Source of the DNA: Enchytraeus crypticus
Lineage: Eukaryota; Annelida; Clitellata; Enchytraeida; Enchytraeidae
NCBI GenBank assembly: GCA_905160935.1
Contig: CAJHZI010000415.1
Location: 585,501-649,500 of the forward strand
Length of the DNA: 64,000 nt
Reading direction: 5' to 3'
The stretch's first letter is position 1. Each line of letters begins with the position of its first letter. The notes under the pieces are model-generated. The model was not told where the DNA came from. It did no database searches and worked only from the letters and a program-made list of their open reading frames with translations. This document shows, one piece after another, positions 7,661-24,000 of this stretch. Made by a program: the position numbers and the translations under genes.

Positions 7661-8016
7661 TTCATATGTTGTCAGCATTAATTTCATGTCATATTTTCTT
7701 AGTTTTTTTAAATTCATATGTTGTCAGCATTAATTACTTGTCATATTTTCTTAGTTTTTTTTAAATTCATATGTTGTCAGCATTAATTACTTGTCATATT
7801 TTCTTAGTTTTTTTTAAATTCATATGTTGTCAGCATTAATTACTTGTCATATTTTCTTAGTTTTTTTTAAATTCATATGTTGTCAGCATTAATTACTTGT
7901 CATATTTTCTTAGATTTTTTAAAATTCATATGTTGTCAGCATTAATTACTTGTCATATTTTCTTAGATTTTTTTAAATTCATATGTTGTCAGCATTAATT
8001 ACATGTCATATTTTCT
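7661..8016. repeat. 53-bp tandem repeat, about 6.7 copies
   Basis: The unit begins ATTCATATGTTGTCAGCATT and ends in a TTAGTTTTTTTTAA tract. Copies are nearly identical, with T-run length and a few bases varying. Confidence 0.95.
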
Positions 8017-8261
8017 ACTCAAAAGTTCTGGTCTAGTTAGGAACAGATTAAATGCATGAGCACTGCATGTGTAACAAGAACCTAAAATCAGAAACGTAGG
8101 AAGTCAGTAGAGATCCATTTATATTATTTTCTTAGCAATCCTTGTTGTAGTTGATTAGAAGTGGTCCCTTAGAGCACTATGTTTCATTACGTCAGTCTCT
8201 CAATTATTATATGGTATCCTTAGGCAATTCAAAGTTAACCAACCATAATAATTAATACAAT

Positions 8262-8340
8262 ACATACAAATTATAATAATAAAGATTTAACGTCCGTTTC
8301 CTCATACAAGGATGGTGTCAGGGACGTCCCCCATCACAAA
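8262..8340 (-). repeat. LINE 3' end, family T2
   Basis: Reverse copy of the T2 3' terminus: (TAA)n then AAGATTTAACGTCCGTTTCC and a GATGGTGTCAGGGACGTCCC block. It lies downstream of the DDR stop codon. Confidence 0.75.
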
Positions 8341-8445
8341 TATATTGCCAATACTTATAATCAACCCAAAACACTTAGACAAATATTGCCTGTGAAATTT
8401 TCGTAACGTTACCAAAACACCAAAGCTTTCTGTTCTCTCAAACAC

Positions 8446-8747
8446 GACTCACACCTTCACTATGTAATCAGCGCACAACTCACGTCTTCGCTATGATATC
8501 AGCGCACAACTCACGCCTTCGCTATGATATCAGTGCACAACTCACACTTTCACTATGATATCAGTGCACAACTCACACTTTCACTATGATATTAGTGCAC
8601 AACTCACACTTTTGCTATGATATCAGTGCACAACTCACACTTTCGCTGTGATATCAGCGGACAACTCACACTTTCGCTATGATATCAGTGCACAACTCAC
8701 ACCTTCACTATGATATCAGCGCACGCCTTCGCTACGTTATCAGCGTA
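8446..8747. repeat. 31-bp minisatellite, about 9-10 copies, reaching into the DDR stop codon
   Basis: The unit is close to GATATCAGTGCACAACTCAC followed by ACTTTCGCTAT. The last, degenerate units (8720-8747) contain the DDR stop codon at 8732-8734 and its last few codons. Confidence 0.92.
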
Positions 8748-9082
8748 GTTCTAAAGGAAGCATCGAGAAGTCCATTCAGCTCATCCTCCGGATTATATCC
8801 CATGTTCTTGCGCTGTAGAAACATGTGGATCTCTCTGAACGTGGGTCGCTTGGAGTCGTCCTGATGCCAACACTCCATCATAAGGTCGTAGATTTCTTTG
8901 GGACAGTTGTCTGGCTGCGAGAGGTACGTCTCGTGCTCGTCTAGGCCCCTGTAGCGGTAGGAGCAGATCTCGAGGATCTGATCGTCGCTGAGGGTAGAGA
9001 AGGGCTGCTGGCGAGCTAGGGTCAGGATCTCCCAGAGTGTCACAGCGAACGACCAGACGTCTGTCTTACACGTGAACTTGTT
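8732..9082 (-). CDS. DDR terminal coding exon: kinase C-lobe and tail
   Basis: Starts [20 protein letters not shown] and includes [19 protein letters not shown], the end of the kinase fold. Human DDRs stop about here. This protein continues for about 23 more residues (from [11 protein letters not shown]), with its last codons and stop lying in the 31-bp minisatellite edge. Acceptor TTGTAG. Confidence 0.93.
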   Translation of the reverse strand, partial: NKFTCKTDVWSFAVTLWEILTLARQQPFSTLSDDQILEICSYRYRGLDEHETYLSQPDNCPKEIYDLMMECWHQDDSKRPTFREIHMFLQRKNMGYNPEDELNGLLDASFRTTLIT

Positions 9083-12000
9083 CTACAACAACAACAATAC
9101 ATCGTCATCTTCCCTTGAATCCCGTTGAACTAGGGTTGGAATACGCATGGAATTATAAGTAACGCTGGATTTTCGTGAGGTATCAGCTAGCTGACGGTTC
9201 CCCGTGTTGTGTCCACGTTGTTTGAAGAATTGACCAACCGGTGACTGCACGTGTCGACTAAAGCACTAAGATCCATACCAACGTCCGAAGGGGCATTCGG
9301 TTGGTGAGCGCCTAGGCTTCAGAATTGCTAGAAAAACTTATTGCTACATGGCAATTCTTAACGCAGCAAACCTGTTCAAGGAATGGGACATATAGCGTCG
9401 GAAAAATTAACGTCGGTAATGATGTTTGAAGTCATCTTAAATTACAATTCATCATCATCGTCGTCTTCCCTTAAATCCAAGTTTAACCAGGGTCGGGAAT
9501 TCGTTTAGGTTTTTGTAGCAATTTCTGGAGCCTAGGCGCTCACCCACCGAATGCCCCTTCTGACGTTGGTAAAATTACAATTAAATTAAAAATTGGTAAT
9601 ACACAAGAAGTAAGACAGAAGTATTCACTTACTAGTACAGCTTGTACATACTAGTACAACAGTAGTACACAATTATTCACTTACTAGTACAACTTTAGGA
9701 CACAAGTATTCACTTACTAGTACACTTACGTATTCATATTCACTATTATTACTATTATTTTTATTATTATTACTATTATTATACTTAATATTCACTTATT
9801 AGTACACAAGTATTCACTTAGTAATACAAAGTATTAACTTACTAGTACAACAGCCTCCCAGGCCATCCAACGTATAGGTAAAGGCGCCAGACCGTCCACT
9901 TTGTAGTAGTCTGTTGGATACAGGACATGACTCACTCCGTAGTCTGAAATCTTCACGAGAAATCTTTGTCCTATCAAGCAATTCCGTGCCGCCAAATCCC
10001 TATGAACCAGGTTCAGTGATTCCAGCAGCTTCATCCCGGACGCTATTTGTGTTGCCATGAAGATTAGGCAACCATAGCTGGAAAAAGTTACAAAATTTCT
10101 TTAACCGATTGAATCAGTTGATGGATTAACTGCTAGCGTGATAAATTGTAAGACAGAGAAATTGAGTTATTATTTTATCAATTTAGTTATTTCTTGATTG
10201 AGTCTTTAATTGATAGAGAGAACTATGTTTATTTCAATACACTCAAAATATACAATGACATCTCAAACAAGGCCGTCAAAGAGGTCACAAGTAACCTATC
10301 TAGTTGACAAATTACCTCAGTCAAATTACAAATGACCTCAGTCATACAAATTGGAAAATAACTAAAATAACTTGATTGACTGGCTGGTTAATTGATTGCT
10401 TGCTTGCTTTTCTTATTTATTAAATGATTTAAACAGGTATCGATGACTCGATCAAGCTGTTTTCAATAATTATAACCGACAGAGCCATTGATTGATTACT
10501 TTTTGATTTATTAAATGATTTAAACAGGTATCGATGAATCGATCAAACTTTTTCAATAATTATAACCGACAGAGCCATTGACCAAAGGTAAACTGGCTAA
10601 TTGATAGATTTCTAAGACATGATTTTATCGATTTGCCTGACTGCATTCCTAACCTCAGTCTAGGACCTGGAGCAGAAGTCTCAGGACAGTCTTCAGACAC
10701 AGATCTCTGGAGATACTGATGGAGAGATCCTCTCAGATACTCCACCACCACACTGGGGCAGTCCCGGACCCTACAAATCCCGATCACCTGGGCTATGTTA
10801 GAGTCCTGTAGTGTCAGCATCAGATCTATCTCGCTGTAGAACTGTAACCTGAACAAAACAGAGTTTAACGTCAGTTTTGTCGCTGGAAATGTTAAATGTT
10901 AAAAAACTTAGCTTAACTTAACTATGCTAGGCTGGAGACTGTGGCGACGCCGGTCAACCGCGGATCAGTATGTTCAGGGTTCAAATCCTGGGCTCGCCCA
11001 TCACTAACATCGCCTTCGAGTGAGAAAACTGACGTTAACCTGAGCTATGTTAGAGTCCTGAAGAGTGAGCATCAGGTCTATCTCGCTGTAGAATGTAATC
11101 TGAACAAAACAGCGTTTAACGACAGTTTTGTCGCTGGAAATGGTACAGGCTGAAATGTAACTCCTCAACCATTTTTACCAAAACTTCCGTCGCTAAGTCT
11201 TCTATACCAAATTAATAATGAAAAATGAAATAATTCTAAATGACAGAGAGAACCTATGCGTCCAAGGCATTACAATTACCGATTTCAGATGCAAAATATT
11301 AAGGGCATAAGAGTATAGAAAGGACCTATAAATCACTTGATTTAAAATAGTAGTAAACAGAATGACAGTAAAGAAGAATGAAATGTATATTTTAAGAAAT
11401 GTAATTTTTCACGTAGACTGTATTTCTTCTAATACCTTATTTTATTAACCCTTATGTGATTTAGTACTCAAATAAGGATTTTATTCTGTGATGCTTCAAT
11501 TAGGAGAAAGTACACAACTAGATCTCTCTCTCACTCTCAGTTAGTACGTTACCAACCTGATAAATTCTAAGGCAAATATTTCTACTAGAGTCTACAATCA
11601 CCATCGATGAACACTAATAAAGCTATAGGTCATCATACACTATCAACAATATAATTTTGTAGCCAAGTCTAAATTCAGCTTTCATTCTGAAGTTATCTTT
11701 GGCAAATGCGTTCTCAGATTTTGTATTTCATAACGCAAGTTTTTCCAATATATCATATGGTAAGCAAAGAAGTCTCGCCCTAAACCTAATATGAGAAGCC
11801 GGCTTCTGCAGTAGTTTGACAGCAACTAGAATAGGACCCTGAAGTGATTTCTCTTTGTTATCAATGGCATCGTCGTCAGAAATACGAAGCTCTGCCAGGT
11901 TAACCTTTAAATATGTAAAAATATGTAAAATTATTTATTACTGAGTATTATTTTAAGACTATCTAACAGCGAACCTCATATAAGCAAGCGCTAAGTACAC

Positions 12001-13348
12001 CTGAGGTAATATTAAGAAAATTAAAGTCCATATACTTCATGTTACATATTCATTTATTTTCGCATATAAATTAGTATTTATGTTAAATGGCTTCAAATTA
12101 GAATAATTTCAAATCTCTTCATAAACATAATTTTTAATGCTAGCAAAATAATTCACAAGAACGTTACAATTAGACTTTTCCAAGTGTTTGGAAAAGATTT
12201 TGTGCTAATGTGAAGGTGTGTGTAAGATCTTACATGTATTTAATGAATATTCATTGAGAAATCTGTTATCTCAAAATTTAAGCTTAGTTTCAGGAACTGT
12301 ATTTGCCTGTCCTAAATTAACTTTTCAAATGAATTCGGGAACTTCATTATAGAGCGTTCTAAACGGACAATGATCAGGAATTTAAACCTCCAAAAAGAGT
12401 TATAGATCGCAAAATATATAACTTTCGATAACATAAGAAATACTCAGATTTGTGCATGTTGCAGTTAACACTTAAAACAACTAGATTGGTGTTATCCTAG
12501 ATCGGTTACATAGTTCTCTAAAAATGTCAACCACAGTCATAATTTTATTATAATTGACATTTAATATACAAATACTTTCTCATTTTAGAGGTGTCATAAA
12601 TGCATTTATAATATTCATCACCGAACTGAGATCATGGCATCAGGCTAATAATTATCTTTGTTGAAGCGAAACAGTACTAATTTTTATGATCGACAATTCA
12701 AACAATATGTTATCTCATTTTAGCGGTGTCGTATAAATAAAATAATTTCTTACTACACTGAGAGCAAAGCATCTTTCTAATATTATACACAAAAACGACC
12801 GTCAGACGTTTTTTTAAAATGTGCTAAATCACATTATCCACATTACCTCTCCGAATACACCCTCGCCCAGCTTCATGATGTGCTTCAGCTCCGTTTCCCT
12901 CAGCAGAAGATGCTGAAGATTTAGCGGAAGCTTTTCCGACGAATTCGCCGCAGCAGATGGAATGGTTGGTAGTTCATGATCGGGGCTGATGGCTCTCCGT
13001 CGGATTAAAGTCCCCTGGACGGGCCGAGTGTCGAGCAACTGAGGGGTGAGATCCCTCGAGTCAGGGTACATCGGGTGAACGGCCCCCCGGTGAGGATTAG
13101 AGGCAGGGGGGTGGACGGGGTAATGAAAGGCTTGGCCGTTAGGAGAACTGTGGGTTAGTCCTCCGTTGTGTTGTGAGCCAGTTAGTAGCAGCATGGCTGC
13201 GTTATCATCTGAAAGAGATGTTAGATGAGTGAAAGTTAATAGCTTAGAGAGCTACGTTCTTTAATTCGTAGTTTTTATATAGAACACACACACATACAGT
13301 ATATATATAATAAATATATAATGTATATACACACTTAATATACTGTAT

Positions 13349-13415
<67 letters not shown>

Positions 13416-14167
13416 CTGGGGCATAAAAAAACAATCCCCTAGCGAATTCTCAATAACTTCAACAAAACTCCAAATATTTATACTAAATTTTTGGATCTTC
13501 TAGAGGAGTAATTTCTGCGTATATCCTGCAAATTTGGTGAAAATATATTCCGTGGTAAAGAAATTACAGCGTTTCTACGAGAAAAGTACTAAAATCAATT
13601 TTAACAAGGCTTTTTTTAAATGTGAGTAGTTCCATCTTAGGAAATTAACGACCCTGAAAAGGATAGTTTACTTATATGGTGGAGTATAAGTATACACTAC
13701 CTATTTAGCTGCTCAAATAGAAGATGTTTAAAATTCATTCTTCGCTTAAAATTATTCCAAAATTTTGAAGAAAAGTTTTCGTACTTTTGTTTAAATAAGG
13801 CTTGTTATAATTGATTTTGAAATTTTTCCAGTAAAAATGTCATATTTTTGTTGCTTCTAAGTATATTTTCACCAAATTTGTAGGATATGTGCAGAACGTT
13901 CTTCTCTAGCAATTCTGAAAATTTTGTAAAATTATTTTGAGTTTTGTTGCAGTTATTAAGACTTTTGATCCAAAAAACCTTGTTAAAATAGATTTTAGCA
14001 CTTTTTTCTTAAAAACGGTGTAATTTGGTTACTACTTAATAGATTTTCACTAAAATGGCTGTTTATATGCATAAGTTTCTCTTCTAAAGGCTCCAAAAAT
14101 TTTGTACAAATAGTTTGATTTTTGTTCAAGTTATTGAGATTCCGCTAGGGGATTTTTTTTGCCCCAG

Positions 14168-14243
<76 letters not shown>

Positions 14244-17200
14244 TATTTATTCGCCATGTGGGCAACCAAAGGACACACAGAACAGAATAATCTCAAATGT
14301 GCAACAAACAAAGCCAATGAAATATAAAGAAAACAGTAGACTGCATTTCGAAAGGTATGCAATAAGCACATAAATCTCATCGACGCTTAAACCGCACAGG
14401 TTATGTGACAAATGCACACAAAAATACTTATAGGTATTCTATTTTACTTTCAGAAGTTTTCAAATTTGAGGTTTATTAATTATTATATCTAGCTAATTTA
14501 TAACTAATTTATATTTTTTTAAGTAAAAGAAATACACATCATCTTGTGACATCTAAACAACTCTATAAGATTAATAACCTGTTGCTTTACTCGGTCTAAT
14601 CTGAAACGTTAGGTCGTTGCACTGAGACTGTTCATTAGGTAACAATCTACTTCTCGTCAACTCCTGAAGAGCCAAGTCCTTCTCAGTCCCATCGGATGAC
14701 GTCATCGTGCGATACTCACTTCCGGTCGTCTTCCTGCTGTACGTCATAACGTGGGTCGGGTCGAAATCACCGAGACTCAACTGGACCCGATCGGCGTGGA
14801 GGGTCGATTTGAGCTTCGAGTTCTTTCCCGAACTCTTCCGCCTTCGATAGCGGAACAACACTAGACAGCCGACGACGAACATGAGCAGGATGAATGCGGA
14901 GAGGGTCCCGATGATGATCCCGATGTAGGCGTCGCTCAGACGAATCCGGGTGGACGCAATGTCTCCTTCAGTGGATGAGTCTTCGGAGTTGTCTTCCACT
15001 GGAAAATTAGTGAAGTAAAATATTTACAATACCCGTGTTTTGTCCGGGTTGCTGAAGGGTAGACCAACTATTGACTGCAGGTGTCATAAAAGGCGACAAA
15101 GCGCTAAGATCTAAATCAATGCGTGGAAAGGTATTCGGTTGGAGAGTAAAGCTGGTAAAGCTAGGGTCAACGTCAGTTTCCTCACTCGTAAGTGATGTCA
15201 GTGACGGGCGAGCCCAGGATTTGAATCCGCACCTACTGATCCGCGGTCGAGTATCTTACCGACTTCGGTAAGATCCAGAAAGTGTCTAAGCTCCAGAAAT
15301 TGCTACACAATTTTCTAAAACGAAAGGAAAATTTTATGCCTACCCTAGTTTACTAGGGATTTTGAATAGGGCATAGAAATAGGAAGAAGAGATGAATAGG
15401 ACACATCTTAGGGGGAAGGTCTATTAAAAGAGGTCATAGAAGGTAGAATGGAAGGAAAAAGAGGCAAGGGCAGGCCGAGATTAGGTATGTTAGATGATTT
15501 AAAGACCCACTCATATGTGGAAATGAAGAGGAAGGCGGAAGACAGAGAGGAGTGGAGGCGTTATGTACCATGGACCTGCCAGTAGGCAGTGCACTAAGAG
15601 AGAGAGAGAGTTTACTAGGGATTCAAGGGGAGATGATGAAGATGAATATATTTTACAAAACATGGCCAAGTGTTTTAATAGCTGTATACAAGATGAAATT
15701 AATTCTCGTGTATTCCATTGCTATTGAGCCATTTCGGATTAAACTGCCTAACGTTTGAGCGTGTGATATTAAATGCAATAAATCAAATACTTGACCGTTT
15801 TGATAACTACAATGTCGTCTAAATTTAAAACATTAATATTCCCTGAGTAGGTTCATGATATAGCATAGAATAAGAACAATTAGAGTGCTGCTGTCATCAA
15901 TAGCAACATCAAGCCGGTGAGTAAAAAGAAGGTCCGAAGAACGGTGCACATTCCAAAACAACAAAATCAGTCCAAGGATAAATGAAATTAAGAAAACTAG
16001 GTTCTGATATTTAAAATTGAAGTTCTGATTAATAAAATAATTTTAATACTAACACTTAACTTTTTTATTATACTAAATATTATGAATTTCACAGTGTATT
16101 AATACTTAATAATATAAGTAGTAATTCAAATAGAATGACTCTACTTGGGGGTTTGATGGTGAAAGGTGCCTCGTTAGAAGTGTTGTTGGAAGAAGCGAGA
16201 TGTTTCTTTCTCTGTTTGTTCTCCACTAAGCTATCCAGATACGAGATCTTTGTGTCTAGAGGTAGCTCCACTGGAATGTTGCCCAAAACTCGTTCTACAA
16301 TGAAAAAATCAGCATTAAGAGGAATTAGACGTAAAATACTTTAATTTATAAGTAATTTATATGGAAGCTTAAAAATCATTCTGATCTTCAATACTTTTAA
16401 TGCCATTGGTCAATCCTGCACCTACTGATCAGCAGTCGAACAACTTGCCAACAAGCTACCGGCTCAGTCCAAAGATTGATAGATTGTAAAATAGATTGAT
16501 TAAATGATTGACTGATCGGTAATAATATATTCGTTTATTTGCGTTCAATCTGACAACCGCAGAAAGTTACAGTACAGAAATTCCAGCAGAAACAGCATAA
16601 CAAATTACAGATATAGCATAAACAGTTAATAGGCTAGATATAAGAGAGATAAAACTAAAAATTGTTCTCGCTAACATTTACCACATGTATATTACATTAC
16701 ATAAATCAATGGTTTATACTATTCATAATTGCCATATAGGGCGAACTGTACTATGAGTAAAGAAGAATCTTTTAGTATTCATTAAATTAACTAGCATCAT
16801 CTAGAATCATACGAATAATGAAGTTTTTATCGCTCAGACTGCTTCGTTTTATGTGAAGGGAAAAGCATCTCTTAGCAGTATTTCTTCGGGTTGGGCAATT
16901 ATGATGATGTATTTATTTATTTAATTGCTCGATTGATTGAAAGATTGATTGATTGAATGATTAATTAATTAATTAAGTGATTCAAACAATATCTTAACAT
17001 AATCTTGTTCTCTATATTTAGATAGTTGGTTTAAAATTAAATATCTGCTCGCATATTCATAATACATTTAAAATTAAATATCGACCTCCGACGAATCTGA
17101 TCTCGCTGATCATCATCCATTTCATATCGAAGTAGAAGGAAGCTCTGACGAATCTGCCTATCTTCTGCTCTAGAGGGACGACCACCCTCCTGCCCGCCTG

Positions 17201-20200
17201 TAGCGCCGTGTCCCTCAAATACCTGAACACAACGACCTCACCCCCGTACCTCTCTCCCCCAACGCTGAATTGAACTCTGACCTCCCTAAACACACTCACC
17301 TGCAATTATGACAATTGCTTGGTTACTAGAGAGCAATGTACAGTAGCTCTATTGATATCAGATTCTTCGGAGGTCGATATCTAATTCCAAATGATATTAT
17401 CATTAATAATGATTATTTTATCAGTTATACTAATGTTTTGTCCGGGATATTGAAGAGTACATTTATGCAGTATCTAAAAGCTGTAAAGCTAAGTTTGACG
17501 TCTGTTTTCGTTTCGTAAAGACACTATTAGAGACGGTCCGGCTGAGATTCGAAATTATGGCCTCCTACTTCTCAAACAAGTTTGCCAAGCATTCGGCCAT
17601 AAAACCGTTAAAGTAGAAGACCAATAGTGGTAATACAGTAGTAGTGATACAACCGTCATAAGAGGGTTCCCGTGTTATGTCCGGGATATTATAGGAATAG
17701 AGCACCAGTTACCTGCAGGTGTCGGAATAGATAACAAAGCAAGAACTGAGGAAGACAACCGGAAAACACCTAGTCATATTTTCTCAAGTGATAGGCTACG
17801 TAAGGCAAGGATGAGTAAGATTTAGCCTTTTATGAAGAGATTAACTGTTAATCTTGATTGAGCCGGTAGCTTGATTGCAAATTGTTTCACAGCGGTTCAG
17901 TTTGTGCAGGGTTCAAATCCAGTGTTCCCATCGTCATTGACACGCTTTCATGAAAGAAATTAACGTTAAACTTGGATTTAAGAGTTATATTTTTCCTCTT
18001 CTGTCCATGTTCTCTTTCTTTTTTTCATCATTTTTCTCTCTATACATTCATTTCTTTTTGAAAAACATTAAACGAAACGGAATTTCATTATTAATTTTAC
18101 ATTCTATTTTCAATATTTGAATTTCTTAGAATGAGAATTTCAGATTTTAATTGTCTTATTTGCAAATAAATTAAATAAAAATTCCACCTCTCGATTGAAA
18201 GCATTGTTAGCCGTGACGATCATGGATGAAAAATTTCGAATTGAATCGAACTGGAATATGATTTCCAACGGATCGTCTGAAGTTGCTTCGTGTTTCCAGG
18301 CCATCCATTCGTAGCCCTTTTTTCCGATTTCCTTCAGATCCAGACGGAAGTTGGAATCACCTTCATCCAGGTCCGTCAGCTGACCGAGTCCCCCAGATAG
18401 GAATCCGTCTACTACGCTTCCATCGTAAGTAAAGTCATGGAAATCCATGTCAGGACCCCTTCTGTCTCCCTGCCTCGTGTTGTAAGATATTGTGCCGTCT
18501 GAATAGAGAAATAGTAGTAATTAAATAAAAATAAATAAACAAATTGCTTCGTGTTGTACGATATTGTGCTATCTGAATACAGACGTATTAGTACTGAAAT
18601 AATAATAAATAACGTATTGTCGTGTGTTGTAAGATATTGTGCCGTCTGAATAAAGTAATGAAATAATAATAATTATATAAAAGTAAATAACAAATTGCTT
18701 CATGCTGTACGATATTGTGCCATCTGAATAAAGAAATAATAATAAGAATAATATAAAAATAAATAAACAAATTGCCTCGTGCTGTAAGATATTGTGCTAT
18801 CTGAATAAAGAAATAATAATAATTCAATAAAAATAAACAAATTGCCTCATGTTGTACGATATTGTGCCGCCTGAATAAAGAAATAATAATAATTTTAAAA
18901 AATAATTAATAAATTGCCTTGTGTTGGACGATATTTTTTCATCTGATTAATAAACTAAAAGTAATAATAATATTTAAAAAAATAATAATATAAAAATAAA
19001 AAAATAATTATATAAAAATAACAAATAATTATATAAAAATAAACAAATAATTATATAAAAATAAACAAATAATTATATAAAAATAAACAAATAATTATAT
19101 AAAAATAAACAAATAATTATATAAAAATAACAAATAATTATATAAAAATAAACAAATAATTATATAAAAATAAACAAATAATTATATAAAAATAAACAAA
19201 TAATTATATAAAAATAAACAAATAATTATATAAAAATAAACAAATAATTATATAAAAATAAACAAATAATTATATAAAAATAAACAAATAATTATATAAA
19301 AATAAACAAATAATTATATAAAAATAAACAAATAATTATATAAAAATTAACAAATAATTATATAAAAATAAACAAATAATTATATAAAAATTAACAAATA
19401 ATTATATAAAAATAAACAAATAATTATATAAAAATAACAAATAATTATATAAAAATTAACAAATAATTATATAAAAATTAACAAATAATTATATAAAAAT
19501 TAACAAATAATTATATAAAAATAAACAAATAATTATATAAAAATTAACAAATAATTATATAAAAATTAACAAATAATTATATAAAAATTAACAAATAATT
19601 ATATAAAAATTAACAAATAATTATATAAAAATTAACAAATAATTATATAAAAATTAACAAATTTCCTCGTGCTGTACGATATTGTGCTATCTGAAAAAGA
19701 AACAAACAAATAATTATATAAAAAATAAACAAATTGGTTTGTGTTGTACGATTTGTGCTATCTGAAAAAAGAAATAAACAAATAAATATATAAAAATATA
19801 AAAAATTGCCTCGTGCTGTACGATATTTTTTCATCTGAATAAAGAAATAATAATAATTAAATAAAAATAAATAACATATTGCCTTGTGTTTTACGATATT
19901 TTCAATCTGCATAAATTTAAAATAATAATTAAATAAAAATAAACAAATTGCCTTGTGTTGTACTATATTGTGCCATAACATTAAATCAAAAATAAATAAT
20001 TAAATATAAATAAATGAACAAAATGCTTCGTGTTGTACGATATTGTTCCATTTGGATAAAGAAATAACAAAAAAATAAATAAAAATAAATAACAAATTAA
20101 AGCTAAAGAAACTTTAACGTCAGTTTTCTGCTCGGCAGCAGGTCAGAGACGAGTAGAGCACTGGATTTGAACCCTGCACCTACTGATCCACTGTAGGACA

Positions 20201-20974
20201 ACGTGCCAGCAAGTCACCGGCTCAACCACAACAAATATTACAATAAAATAAAACTAGATGAATTAATTTACAAAATAGGAAATAAGTTAATCGATGGTAG
20301 AAAGTAAATTAAATAAAGAAATACTGAGAAAATATACTAGTAAGAAACGAGTTAATTAATGCTTATTATTACATCTTACAAGAAATACTCTTTACTGTTA
20401 TATTCTTGTATATTTTTGTGTATACTTAGTATTCGGTTTATGGTAACTAAAGAATGAAGTGGATAAAATTTAAGTTATTAAGTTACGAACTTAATTACCA
20501 ATACACTGAATAATATCTAAAAGTAAGAAGTCGTTGCTCGTTAATTAAGCTATTATAGGATAAAGTACAAACTATTTCGATTGTATAATTATCATTTCAT
20601 CATGTCTCATTGCACCACAATTTTATGTTTTTGAATACGTTAAATTCACTTTGCTATTAATATCGGTATATTCCAGATTCTGGGTTTTCTTCTCTAAAAA
20701 ATGTTAACGTTGTATTATCAAAGGCATCAGTCAATCTGAATCAGATGGAACTCAGCTCATGCGAGTTGCTACCCAATGAATTACTTAGTAGGTATTTATG
20801 ACGGTAGCTCGAGTGTGTCGAGTCGTGTCGAAGCGAAGCCTTGTATGTATCCGAACCTTGGCGTAAAGCACACCACATCCCTTATTCTTTTGTGGATATA
20901 AGGCAGCAGAAAGTTTATTTTTGGATGAATTGGAAAAACAATGACACATTGCTATCTCTCGGTCTGTCTGTCTA

Positions 20975-21008
<34 letters not shown>

Positions 21009-24000
21009 CGAAGTAACGCTGATTGCAGCGCTGTCAACTGGCGTGTATCAATATAATCGCAGCGTCATATTTAAAATTCCTAAATTAAACATCTTCTTTC
21101 ATATATGAGAAATTTTTAGATATTGATTTCTTGAGAGAGGTATTCTATATTGATGGAACGTTTGCCTTAGGATTGATAGATTAGGATTCAAATCCAGATT
21201 CAGTTAAATTTGACCATTTTTCCTAGATGTGAGCATTTTGTACACGGGTACATCTAGTTATTAAATAAGGGATGTAAGAAAATTTGATAAAGAACCTTTC
21301 CAGGGGCAGCCATAAATCTCCACCCTCATGCAAACAGTCCTGGGATGATTGGCGTAGGGAATGAAGCGAAGGCGTTGAGCGATAATAGGAGGACGAAGTT
21401 CTCTCATTTCAGCTAAAAATGTGTTCACGTTCCCTTCAACCAGCTGAAAAAATTACACAAAGTCATCCAAGATTGCTCCTGAATATATGAATCCAGAATA
21501 TACATTATTACATCTAATGAGTAGGACTCTTTACTGTTATTTTCTTGTATATTTTAGCGTATACTTATTATTAACTTTTATAATAACTAAAGAATGAAGT
21601 GGATAAAATTAAAATTATTAAGTTACGAACTCAATTACTAATAAACTATACTGAAAGAAATCTAAAAGTAATGAAATTGTTACTCGCTAATTAAGTTATT
21701 ATTAGATAAAGAACACACGTTTTCGATTGCATAATATCCTTTCATCATGTCTCATTGCACTACAGTTAAAAAATTTTGAATACGCAGATATGTCGGTAAG
21801 ATACCCGACTGCGAATCAGTATGTGCGTGGTTCAAATACTGGGCTCAACCGTCACTGATATCGCCTTCGAGAGATGAAACTGGCTTTAACATTTGACTAA
21901 ATATAATAAAAGGAATTAAGAAAGTTTTGGAATTTAACCATAGATCTATTTTGGTGATCTGATTGATACTGATCACCTGGCTGGCGACATGACTGTACGG
22001 GCTTCTGCTGACTCTAAACATTAGCACCAAAAATACAAGAATTTTTTACCTCGACTCCCTTCAGGTCTCTAAACCGAAGCCACCTGTCTCCAGTCTCTCT
22101 TTGGTATTCCAGGAAATAGTATGGAGCAAATTCCTGACCCTGTAACATAGCAAAAATTATCATAAACATACCGGTAGCTCGAATACTTCCAGATGACTCG
22201 GCACATTCCAACTACCTTCTCCGAGACCAATAAGCTTAAGACTAAGCTTGTTAGAATTTAACTTTTTCACTCGTACCGAGTTGTCTTAATCTCTAGCGAT
22301 TATTATGAGTTTTTATGAAATTTATAAGAGAAATTATTATGATATTTATTTCAAAATACTGGAGTCTAAACTTCCTTTTTTAGTGTCCTTTACAAAGGAT
22401 TGACTTTTGATTGAAATAGCTCTATTAACTTTCAAAACTCTGCGATTTGGTAAGCCCTCGTACTTATCTGAAATTCTTCTTCCCTATCGCCCCTCACGTT
22501 CACTTCGTTCCACCGATGCCAATCTTCTCTCTGTTCCAAATATTCTCACATCATTGGGCAGACGTTCTTTTTCTTACGCAGCACCCACAATCTGGAACTC
22601 TTTACCTGCTAATCTTCGCTCTTGTTCATCTCTTTCAACATTCTCTAGCAAGCTTAAGACTTACCTTTTCCCACCGTAGACATAATCAATCTACCCTGAC
22701 CATGTTTGATCACCGGACTGGCTTTCGTTTAGGACCTTACTTCTCCTCAGCACATTTCTTTTGCAGATTGGTCTGGGTGAATTGATCTGTAGTGATGTGT
22801 GCTGTTGGGGACGTCCCTGACATCATCCCTGGATGAGGAAACGGACGTTAAACCTTTATTATTATTATTATTATTATTATTGAGCCTCACCTTGCTTGTA
22901 CATGTTAAAGAAGGAAATAGTTAAATTTGTAACAATTATAAAGAGTATAGCTAACAATAGATAGATATACAATTGGACCCCACACTCTGCTCTTCGGATC
23001 GGATTTGGTACCATAGTGCTCAATGTTGTCGTGGACGACGGTAACTCTAATTCTGTTGTTGTTGTTGTTGTAGTACCTGACCATTTTTGACCACCGGACG
23101 GGCTTTCATTTAGGACATTTCTTCTCCTCATTTCTACGCACATTTCTTTTGCAGAATGGTCTGGGTGAATTGATCTGTAGTGATGTGTGCTGTGGAGACG
23201 TCCCTGACATCATCCTTGGATGAGGAAACGGAGGTTAAACCTTTATTTTTGTTTATTAATTATTATTATTATTGTCGTTGTTGCTGTTATTACCTGACCA
23301 TTGCCAAACCGCCCCTGTGTCTCGACCATAGATATGACAAATAGATCCCTGAGATCCACCTCTAACCACTCGTACGTATGTTTGCCTATCTGCTGTTTGG
23401 GACACCACGCTCCTCCGTTCTTCTCAGTTCTAATTCTACAAAACATAAATATCTGCACTGAAATCTAAATAAAACACAGCAACGTCGCTTGAAATTAATT
23501 TTTCACATGTACAGCTGGCGTTGAACGTTTAATAAATAATTTAGTAGATAACCCCACGTCATATCTATAATTGTCAAAAGTTTACATGCACTAAATCAAT
23601 ATCATTTACATACGAGATACACAAGAAAGGCATCGTAAAGCAAAAGCGCAGCAAACGCTCAATGGAAGCACCTGTGGTTCAATTTCTATTTTTTATTTCC
23701 TTTATTTTTTTATTTTTTTATTCTAAGTTGGTGCGATTTCTATTTGGTGTGATGGCTAACAGTCGCGTAATGACTACATTAAAAACAATGGAGGATTCCA
23801 AATGTGTGTTGCATAAGTGCTCGATATTTTCATGGACACAGTATCGCTCTAACAACAGTCGCTACTTCTGCTCGTAAGGCTAGCCGTGTCACAGAGCTGG
23901 CTCGTGAGGCTCGCGAACCGGTCTATCTAGAGCTGCCCTCTAGCTCTCGACTAAGTGCGTCTCGTGGGAGAGACGGGAAATCAAAGAAAATGCGTTTTCC

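Follow-up and report, generated by a model that had tools for sequence, protein, structure and literature searches.

A minisatellite of twelve decoy splice acceptors in a DDR gene, probably a harmless mirage of an annelid-type genome

Described repeats at exon–intron boundaries

The available sections of two papers on amphioxus (PMC3087553, PMC3902484) describe mirages, namely tandem repeats that run across exon–intron boundaries, in the Adh3, globin and TnC genes, and liken to them the similar but imperfect boundary repeats of the PGBD5 gene. According to the same sections, one acceptor of the globin gene BflGb6 carries six units in one haplotype and three in the other, the units being 81–100% identical, and the globins (BflGb6, BflGb9) also provide a case in which the boundary at the 3′ end of an exon is affected. 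AG or GT is retained in many of the amphioxus units, though not in all. The mirages are reported there not to disturb splicing, which for PGBD5 was suggested, and one of the two papers suggests that they may occur in cephalochordates generally.

In human CBS, the variant 844ins68 is, in the available part of its description (PMC4479818), a 68-bp insertion that duplicates the splice site at an intron/exon junction; it is a human polymorphism and adds one extra copy, unlike the array described here. The available sections of PMC3087553 also present a model of intron gain in which duplicated AG/GT sites and tandem exon–intron copies could become new introns. For an earthworm metallothionein gene, minisatellites in an intron and extra exon copies missing from the transcript are reported in the accessible part of PMC12783039. 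Outside amphioxus and the human CBS case, no boundary-spanning minisatellites were found in the literature searched, which covered few subscription journals.

The analyzed window, that is, the whole stretch of 64 kb (C322:585501–649500, on a contig of 1.4 Mb in a genome of 524 Mb and 802 contigs), contains a DDR gene with an array similar to the amphioxus mirages. Its repeat unit spans an intron–exon boundary, many of the units, not all, keep splice signals (AG in 10 of 12; a score not below that of the true acceptor in 8 of 12), and acceptor and donor sides are both affected here (three acceptors and two donors of the 74 edges tested). However, the array has 12 decoys at one acceptor, as against six and three units in BflGb6, includes a nested 22-bp satellite and belongs to a host that, by mitochondrial gene order, is not a cephalochordate. 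The mitochondrial contig C802, translated with code 5, has the order nad3, nad2, cox1, cox2, cox3, while nad1 is absent from the mitochondrial piece examined; the location of nad3 between nad1 and nad2 appears to be a change confined to annelids and their relatives, as stated in the available part of the Sipunculus paper (PMC2639372). The gene order points to an annelid, and the COI protein also looks annelid-like. The presumed atp8 ORF on C802 had no Pfam match and was assigned by position only.

In contrast to the intron-gain model, as given in the available sections of PMC3087553, the DDR units have acceptors and no good donors (none of 59 GTs at the 10th percentile of real donors, two at the weakest) and therefore supply no new intron as they stand. 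The earthworm gene is alike in being an annelid gene with intron minisatellites, but its repeats lie within intron 1 and, in the accessible part of PMC12783039, are not described as built from exon edges. By its anatomy, as known here from the sequence of one assembly, the DDR array would be classified as a mirage.

The DDR gene, the array and its units

The DDR gene is located on the minus strand of the window, where discoidin exons (approximately 26.9–21.3 k) are followed by DS-like and then kinase exons.

21296–21443, minus strand: upstream DDR discoidin exon, ending in ...TGGAAAG/GTTCTT (the slash marks the exon–intron boundary), found by alignment with the C322:761 k paralogue
18188–18498, minus strand: true DDR DS-like exon (PF21114), acceptor ...TCTCTATTCAG/ACGG, donor CGAGAG/GTGGAA (donor score 6.5)
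About 17.3 k, minus strand: second DDR DS-like exon
10.85, 10.08 and 9.08 k, minus strand: DDR kinase exons

The DS-like exon 18498–18188 was attributed to PF21114 by Pfam (E = 5.9e-29), the kinase exons matched PF07714 (E = 1e-24 and 1.4e-22), and the identity of the gene as DDR was indicated by matches to PDB DDR1 chains (E = 4e-11). The discoidin exon 21296–21443 had only a weak match to the Pfam F5/8 type C domain (E = 0.27). The DS-like and tyrosine kinase domains appear to belong to one DDR gene, with order and strand as in the C322:761 k paralogue. In all eight paralogue loci fetched, the homologue of the exon 18498–18188 is preceded by AG at the identical place; the preceding exon, and hence the phase, was seen for the DDR gene of the window and the C322:761 k paralogue only. 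The exon starts with (G)AT or (G)AC followed by GGC, encoding Asp-Gly, the G being supplied by the preceding exon. A profile search of the genome also showed that DDR-like genes are expanded, with at least 17 PF21114 matches on 10 contigs. The DS-like exon of the C322 paralogue ends in TCAG/GCAAGT, an apparent GC-type donor.

The array is located in the intron 21295–18499 (approximately 2.8 kb) and contains the features listed below; scores of U2–U10 are from the stricter of the two acceptor matrices.

18499–20097, minus strand: exon-edge array of 12 decoy units (acceptor and edge) and the 22-bp satellite, by local alignment and tandem-repeat search
18545–18572, minus strand: exon edge of U1, AG intact, score 2.8 (stricter matrix) or 7.1 (first matrix)
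18618–18645, minus strand: exon edge of U2, AG intact, score 8.9, first 22 nt as in the true edge
18696–18723, minus strand: exon edge of U3, AG intact, score 10.1
18773–18800, minus strand: exon edge of U4, AG intact, score 10.1
18843–18870, minus strand: exon edge of U5, AG intact, score 10.1
18915–18942, minus strand: exon edge of U6, AG intact, weak tract, score 2.8
18975–19662, no strand: 22-bp AT-rich satellite between U6 and U7, 31.4 copies, 97% matches
19663–19690, minus strand: exon edge of U7, AG intact, score 12.2
19734–19761, minus strand: exon edge of U8, AG intact, score 13.8
19807–19834, minus strand: exon edge of U9, AG intact, score 10.1
19879–19906, minus strand: exon edge of U10, AG intact, score 10.6
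19949–19976, minus strand: exon edge of U11, AG lost
20024–20051, minus strand: exon edge of U12, AG lost

Local alignment revealed 13 copies of the acceptor with its exon edge on the minus strand, namely 12 decoys and the true exon edge. The array unit of approximately 73 bp consists of about 45 nt of intron end and 28 nt of exon edge, and the units are spaced 70–78 bp apart with the single exception of a 748-bp step, which contains the 22-bp satellite. An earlier sequence-only reading had placed such an array at approximately 18468–20100 and had derived its units from the 5′ edge of the exon and its acceptor. The array is real and lies there, and the derivation was confirmed by alignment, since the decoys scored 50–100 against a best score of 40 from 200 first-order Markov shuffles of positions 18540–20100. 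The decoys were aligned over 72 bp and have a mean identity of approximately 84% to the true copy (75–89% in the exonic part, 77–91% in the intronic part); identity among the units is 70–94%. Each acceptor had been said to be followed by about 25 nt of real exon sequence; the exonic part found is 28 nt. Of the dozen near-identical acceptors of that reading, 12 copies were found, but the exact TTATTCAG is present five times in the array and not about 12 times, and AG is kept in 10 of the 12 decoys, being lost in the two most distal ones. A dimeric higher-order unit (TRF period 147) was considered and rejected, the pairwise unit identities having no clear two-unit pattern. Searches with Rfam (positions 8000–24000) and ARAGORN (whole window) gave no matches.

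The second exon base is T in 10 of the 12 decoys and C in the true exon; the C is also found in U2 and U5. The exon starts with ATGG, i.e., (G)AT GGC, in six of the eight paralogue loci. Because T prevails in the decoys and ATGG in the paralogue loci, the Asp codon of most decoys seems to be the older one, with a silent change in the true exon. The claim that many units keep an ATG-like coding start did not survive: the exact ATGGCACAATAT is present twice in the array, and the "ATG" is part of the Asp codon and not a start codon. In addition, the first 22 exon nucleotides of the true edge are identical in U2 and not in its neighbor U1, which, within this one assembly, suggests a later exchange between the decoys and the working exon edge.

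Splicing potential of the decoys

Two position matrices were used for scoring the acceptors. The first was built from 24 DDR-family acceptors with the true site excluded; it took in homologous DS-like sites and two exon bases and was thereby biased toward the decoys. The stricter matrix was built from 30 of 39 acceptors, nine being dropped, and contained no DS-like site of this intron and no exon bases. By these matrices, both of them small, 9 and 8 of the 12 decoys, respectively, have scores equal to or above that of the true acceptor. The latter has a score of 4.9 by the stricter matrix, and U1 and U6 (2.8) are lower. According to the first matrix, 12 of the intron's 100 AGs score above the lower quartile of the real sites, namely nine decoy acceptors and three others. 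This scoring of the units bore out the view that most of the decoys are credible acceptors, and the sequence-only reading was also right that strong definition of the true exon would be needed.

The same reading had proposed alternative short exons, and here the result was different. Self-contained short exons inside the array are unlikely, because none of its 59 GTs reaches the 10th percentile of the 35 real donors; two reach the weakest real donor. Joining to the true donor is the main way in which a decoy could be used; the resulting exon has a length of 385 to approximately 1860 nt and a stop is met after 1–53 codons in 12 of 12 cases, both AG-less units included. Splicing to a decoy would therefore be unproductive. 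U1 is the nearest decoy, and its leaky use is plausible, because it would add only 74 nt to the exon and its score is above that of the true site by the first matrix and below it by the stricter one. In exon definition, a splice acceptor is used when a good donor follows at normal exon distance. This offers a simple reason why decoy use may be rare.

Edge copies elsewhere in the genome and the origin of the array

In order to count edge copies, 74 edges were tested (39 acceptors and 35 donors; 44 from DDR genes and 30 from P450 genes), which represent two gene families, one of them chosen for having the feature, with the prompting locus included. A local copy with at least 9 exonic nt and a score of at least 21 was counted. 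The L041 donor (motif not found), the L045 and L050 acceptors (position unclear) and the L037 donor (last exon) were left out before the count, and for ten of the 17 P450 loci the flanking sequence was limited to about 300 bp on each side. Local copies were found at 5 of the 74 edges (3 acceptors and 2 donors), namely the acceptor described above, the acceptor of the kinase exon 10848, the donor of the kinase exon 10077–9843, the donor of a DDR paralogue on C158 and the acceptor of a P450 gene on C435. The array had been treated as a one-off and is not, with edge copying at four other boundaries among those tested. The copies at the kinase exons are as follows.

9649–9850, minus strand: second edge array, the 3′ edge and donor (TACTA/GTAAGT) of the kinase exon 10077–9843 (PF07714, E = 1e-24) copied downstream
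11040–11141, minus strand: single copy of the acceptor and 60 nt of edge of the kinase exon 10848, adjoining an antisense SINE at its 3′ end

By eye, the C158 donor has eight further, diverged copies of CAGTTTGAATCAG/GTAAACAG, and the C435 acceptor has two further copies. Among matched random positions, 118 of 2220 (5.3%) had a local copy (binomial p = 0.60); these positions were taken from a 264-kb stretch of one contig with matched search length and with low-complexity windows excluded, and none of the 74 edges is a low-complexity window. Because 5 of 74 is close to this background, exon edges look to be copied about as often as other sequence, neither targeted nor spared, and the idea of edges as a favored target was rejected. 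A copy within 2 kb was found for 13.9% of 3000 random positions with low-complexity windows and for 6.4% of 2659 without them. Four edges remained below the threshold and were not counted. The donor of exon 23437–23294 of this gene and that of the C322:761 k paralogue both reached a score of 20, with 9 and 2 exonic nt, respectively; a donor on C151 reached 18 in a simple repeat without exonic nt; and at a C101 acceptor, where a 37-bp array ends, the best match was 12 with 1 exonic nt.

This C101 array (paralogue L031, 1022–1491) consists of 12.7 units and reaches as far as the acceptor of the homologous exon; TTCAG is present in most units, with no clear exon sequence. The copy of the kinase exon start (11099–11040, minus strand) has the form of a 60-nt pseudo-exon with an acceptor of 8.8, a donor-like CAG/GTTAAC of 7.7 and a SINE border, and an apparent early stop was seen by eye in the frame of the true exon. 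The next DS-like exon is preceded directly upstream by an inverted copy of its own 3′ edge and donor (17346–17400, plus strand, against 17060–17110, minus strand), and a transcript hairpin around this second DS-like exon is possible (by eye). In the C322 paralogue L002 (approximately 864 and 981), the donor of the preceding exon, AG/GTTCGATTAATC, is repeated with the following intron sequence about 120 bp downstream.

A SINE is located at the distal border of the array.

20098–20238, minus strand: tRNA-like SINE whose 3′ end adjoins the first array unit (profile match 20238–20103, E = 2.8e-40)

Its end at approximately 20098 was set by eye against other copies, and the profile match stops at 20103. 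A possible 7-bp target repeat, ATTTGTT, flanks the element on both sides (by eye). Box-like motifs would make this SINE tRNA-derived in our own reading; ARAGORN finds no tRNA. In the 64-kb window, one SINE profile matched 25 times, and the tandem-repeat search gave 85 rows that partly overlap.

No more than about 6 bp separate the start of the array from the 3′ end of this SINE, and the same holds for the end of the kinase acceptor copy and the 3′ end of the antisense SINE. These borders are a lead only. They would fit a duplication initiated at the 3′ junction of an inserted SINE, with retroposition breaks seeding the copying of exon edges, but the coincidence was noticed after the fact among 25 profile matches, no SINE was found at the borders of the C158 and C435 arrays in the sequence examined, no SINE end was seen by eye at the start of the window's other arrays, and the SINE may have been inserted after the array had formed; such an origin is unlikely. 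An assembly artefact is extremely improbable: although low-complexity tandem sequence is involved and the near-identical stretch of the 22-bp satellite could be mis-sized, the units differ from each other (70–94% identity) and so are not copies of one read, their spacing is regular on a contig of 1.4 Mb, and similar edge copies were found on other contigs.

An alternative is unproductive-splicing control, in which some transcripts would be joined to decoys, extend to the true donor, meet a premature stop and be degraded, so that the copy number of the array would set the DDR dose. Most decoys are good acceptors and are transcribed before the true one, a stop is met in all 12 extensions, and the 60-nt pseudo-exon of the same gene has an acceptor of 8.8 and a donor of 7.7, all of which would suit such control. 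We nevertheless consider it quite improbable, since no sign of upkeep was seen (AG in 10 of 12 is near the drift expectation at this divergence, 8–9 by our own estimate), the extended exons are long (385 to approximately 1860 nt) and the amphioxus mirages are reported silent in the available sections of PMC3087553 and PMC3902484. The further idea of a length-variable rheostat, in which each extra decoy diverts some DDR transcripts to extended, stop-containing exons, the unit number sets the receptor dose and varies between individuals, and the mirages of other edges act likewise on other genes of this lineage, seems very improbable.

The array is quite probably a mirage-type minisatellite that arose as a neutral by-product of a repeat-rich genome. 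A segment of approximately 73 bp, comprising the AT-rich intron end, the 3′ splice site and the first 28 exon nucleotides, would have been tandemly duplicated, would have grown to 12 upstream copies and would have gained the nested 22-bp satellite. Frequent local tandem copying in this genome, exon edges included, could yield such an array without selection. Splicing probably still takes place at the true acceptor, which alone has a good donor at normal exon distance, and the array may be tolerated because only this acceptor has a donor nearby. We infer its functional silence.

Overall, the array is a real and striking, probably harmless mirage, apparently in a new phylum, and edge copies are not rare in this genome. 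This clear case of 12 decoys in an annelid-type genome, together with the copies at an unrelated gene family, suggests that mirages are a more general result of high rates of local tandem copying. In addition, the array is a natural test of exon definition, with approximately eight acceptors that score as well as the real one and whose main difference from it is the lack of a nearby donor.
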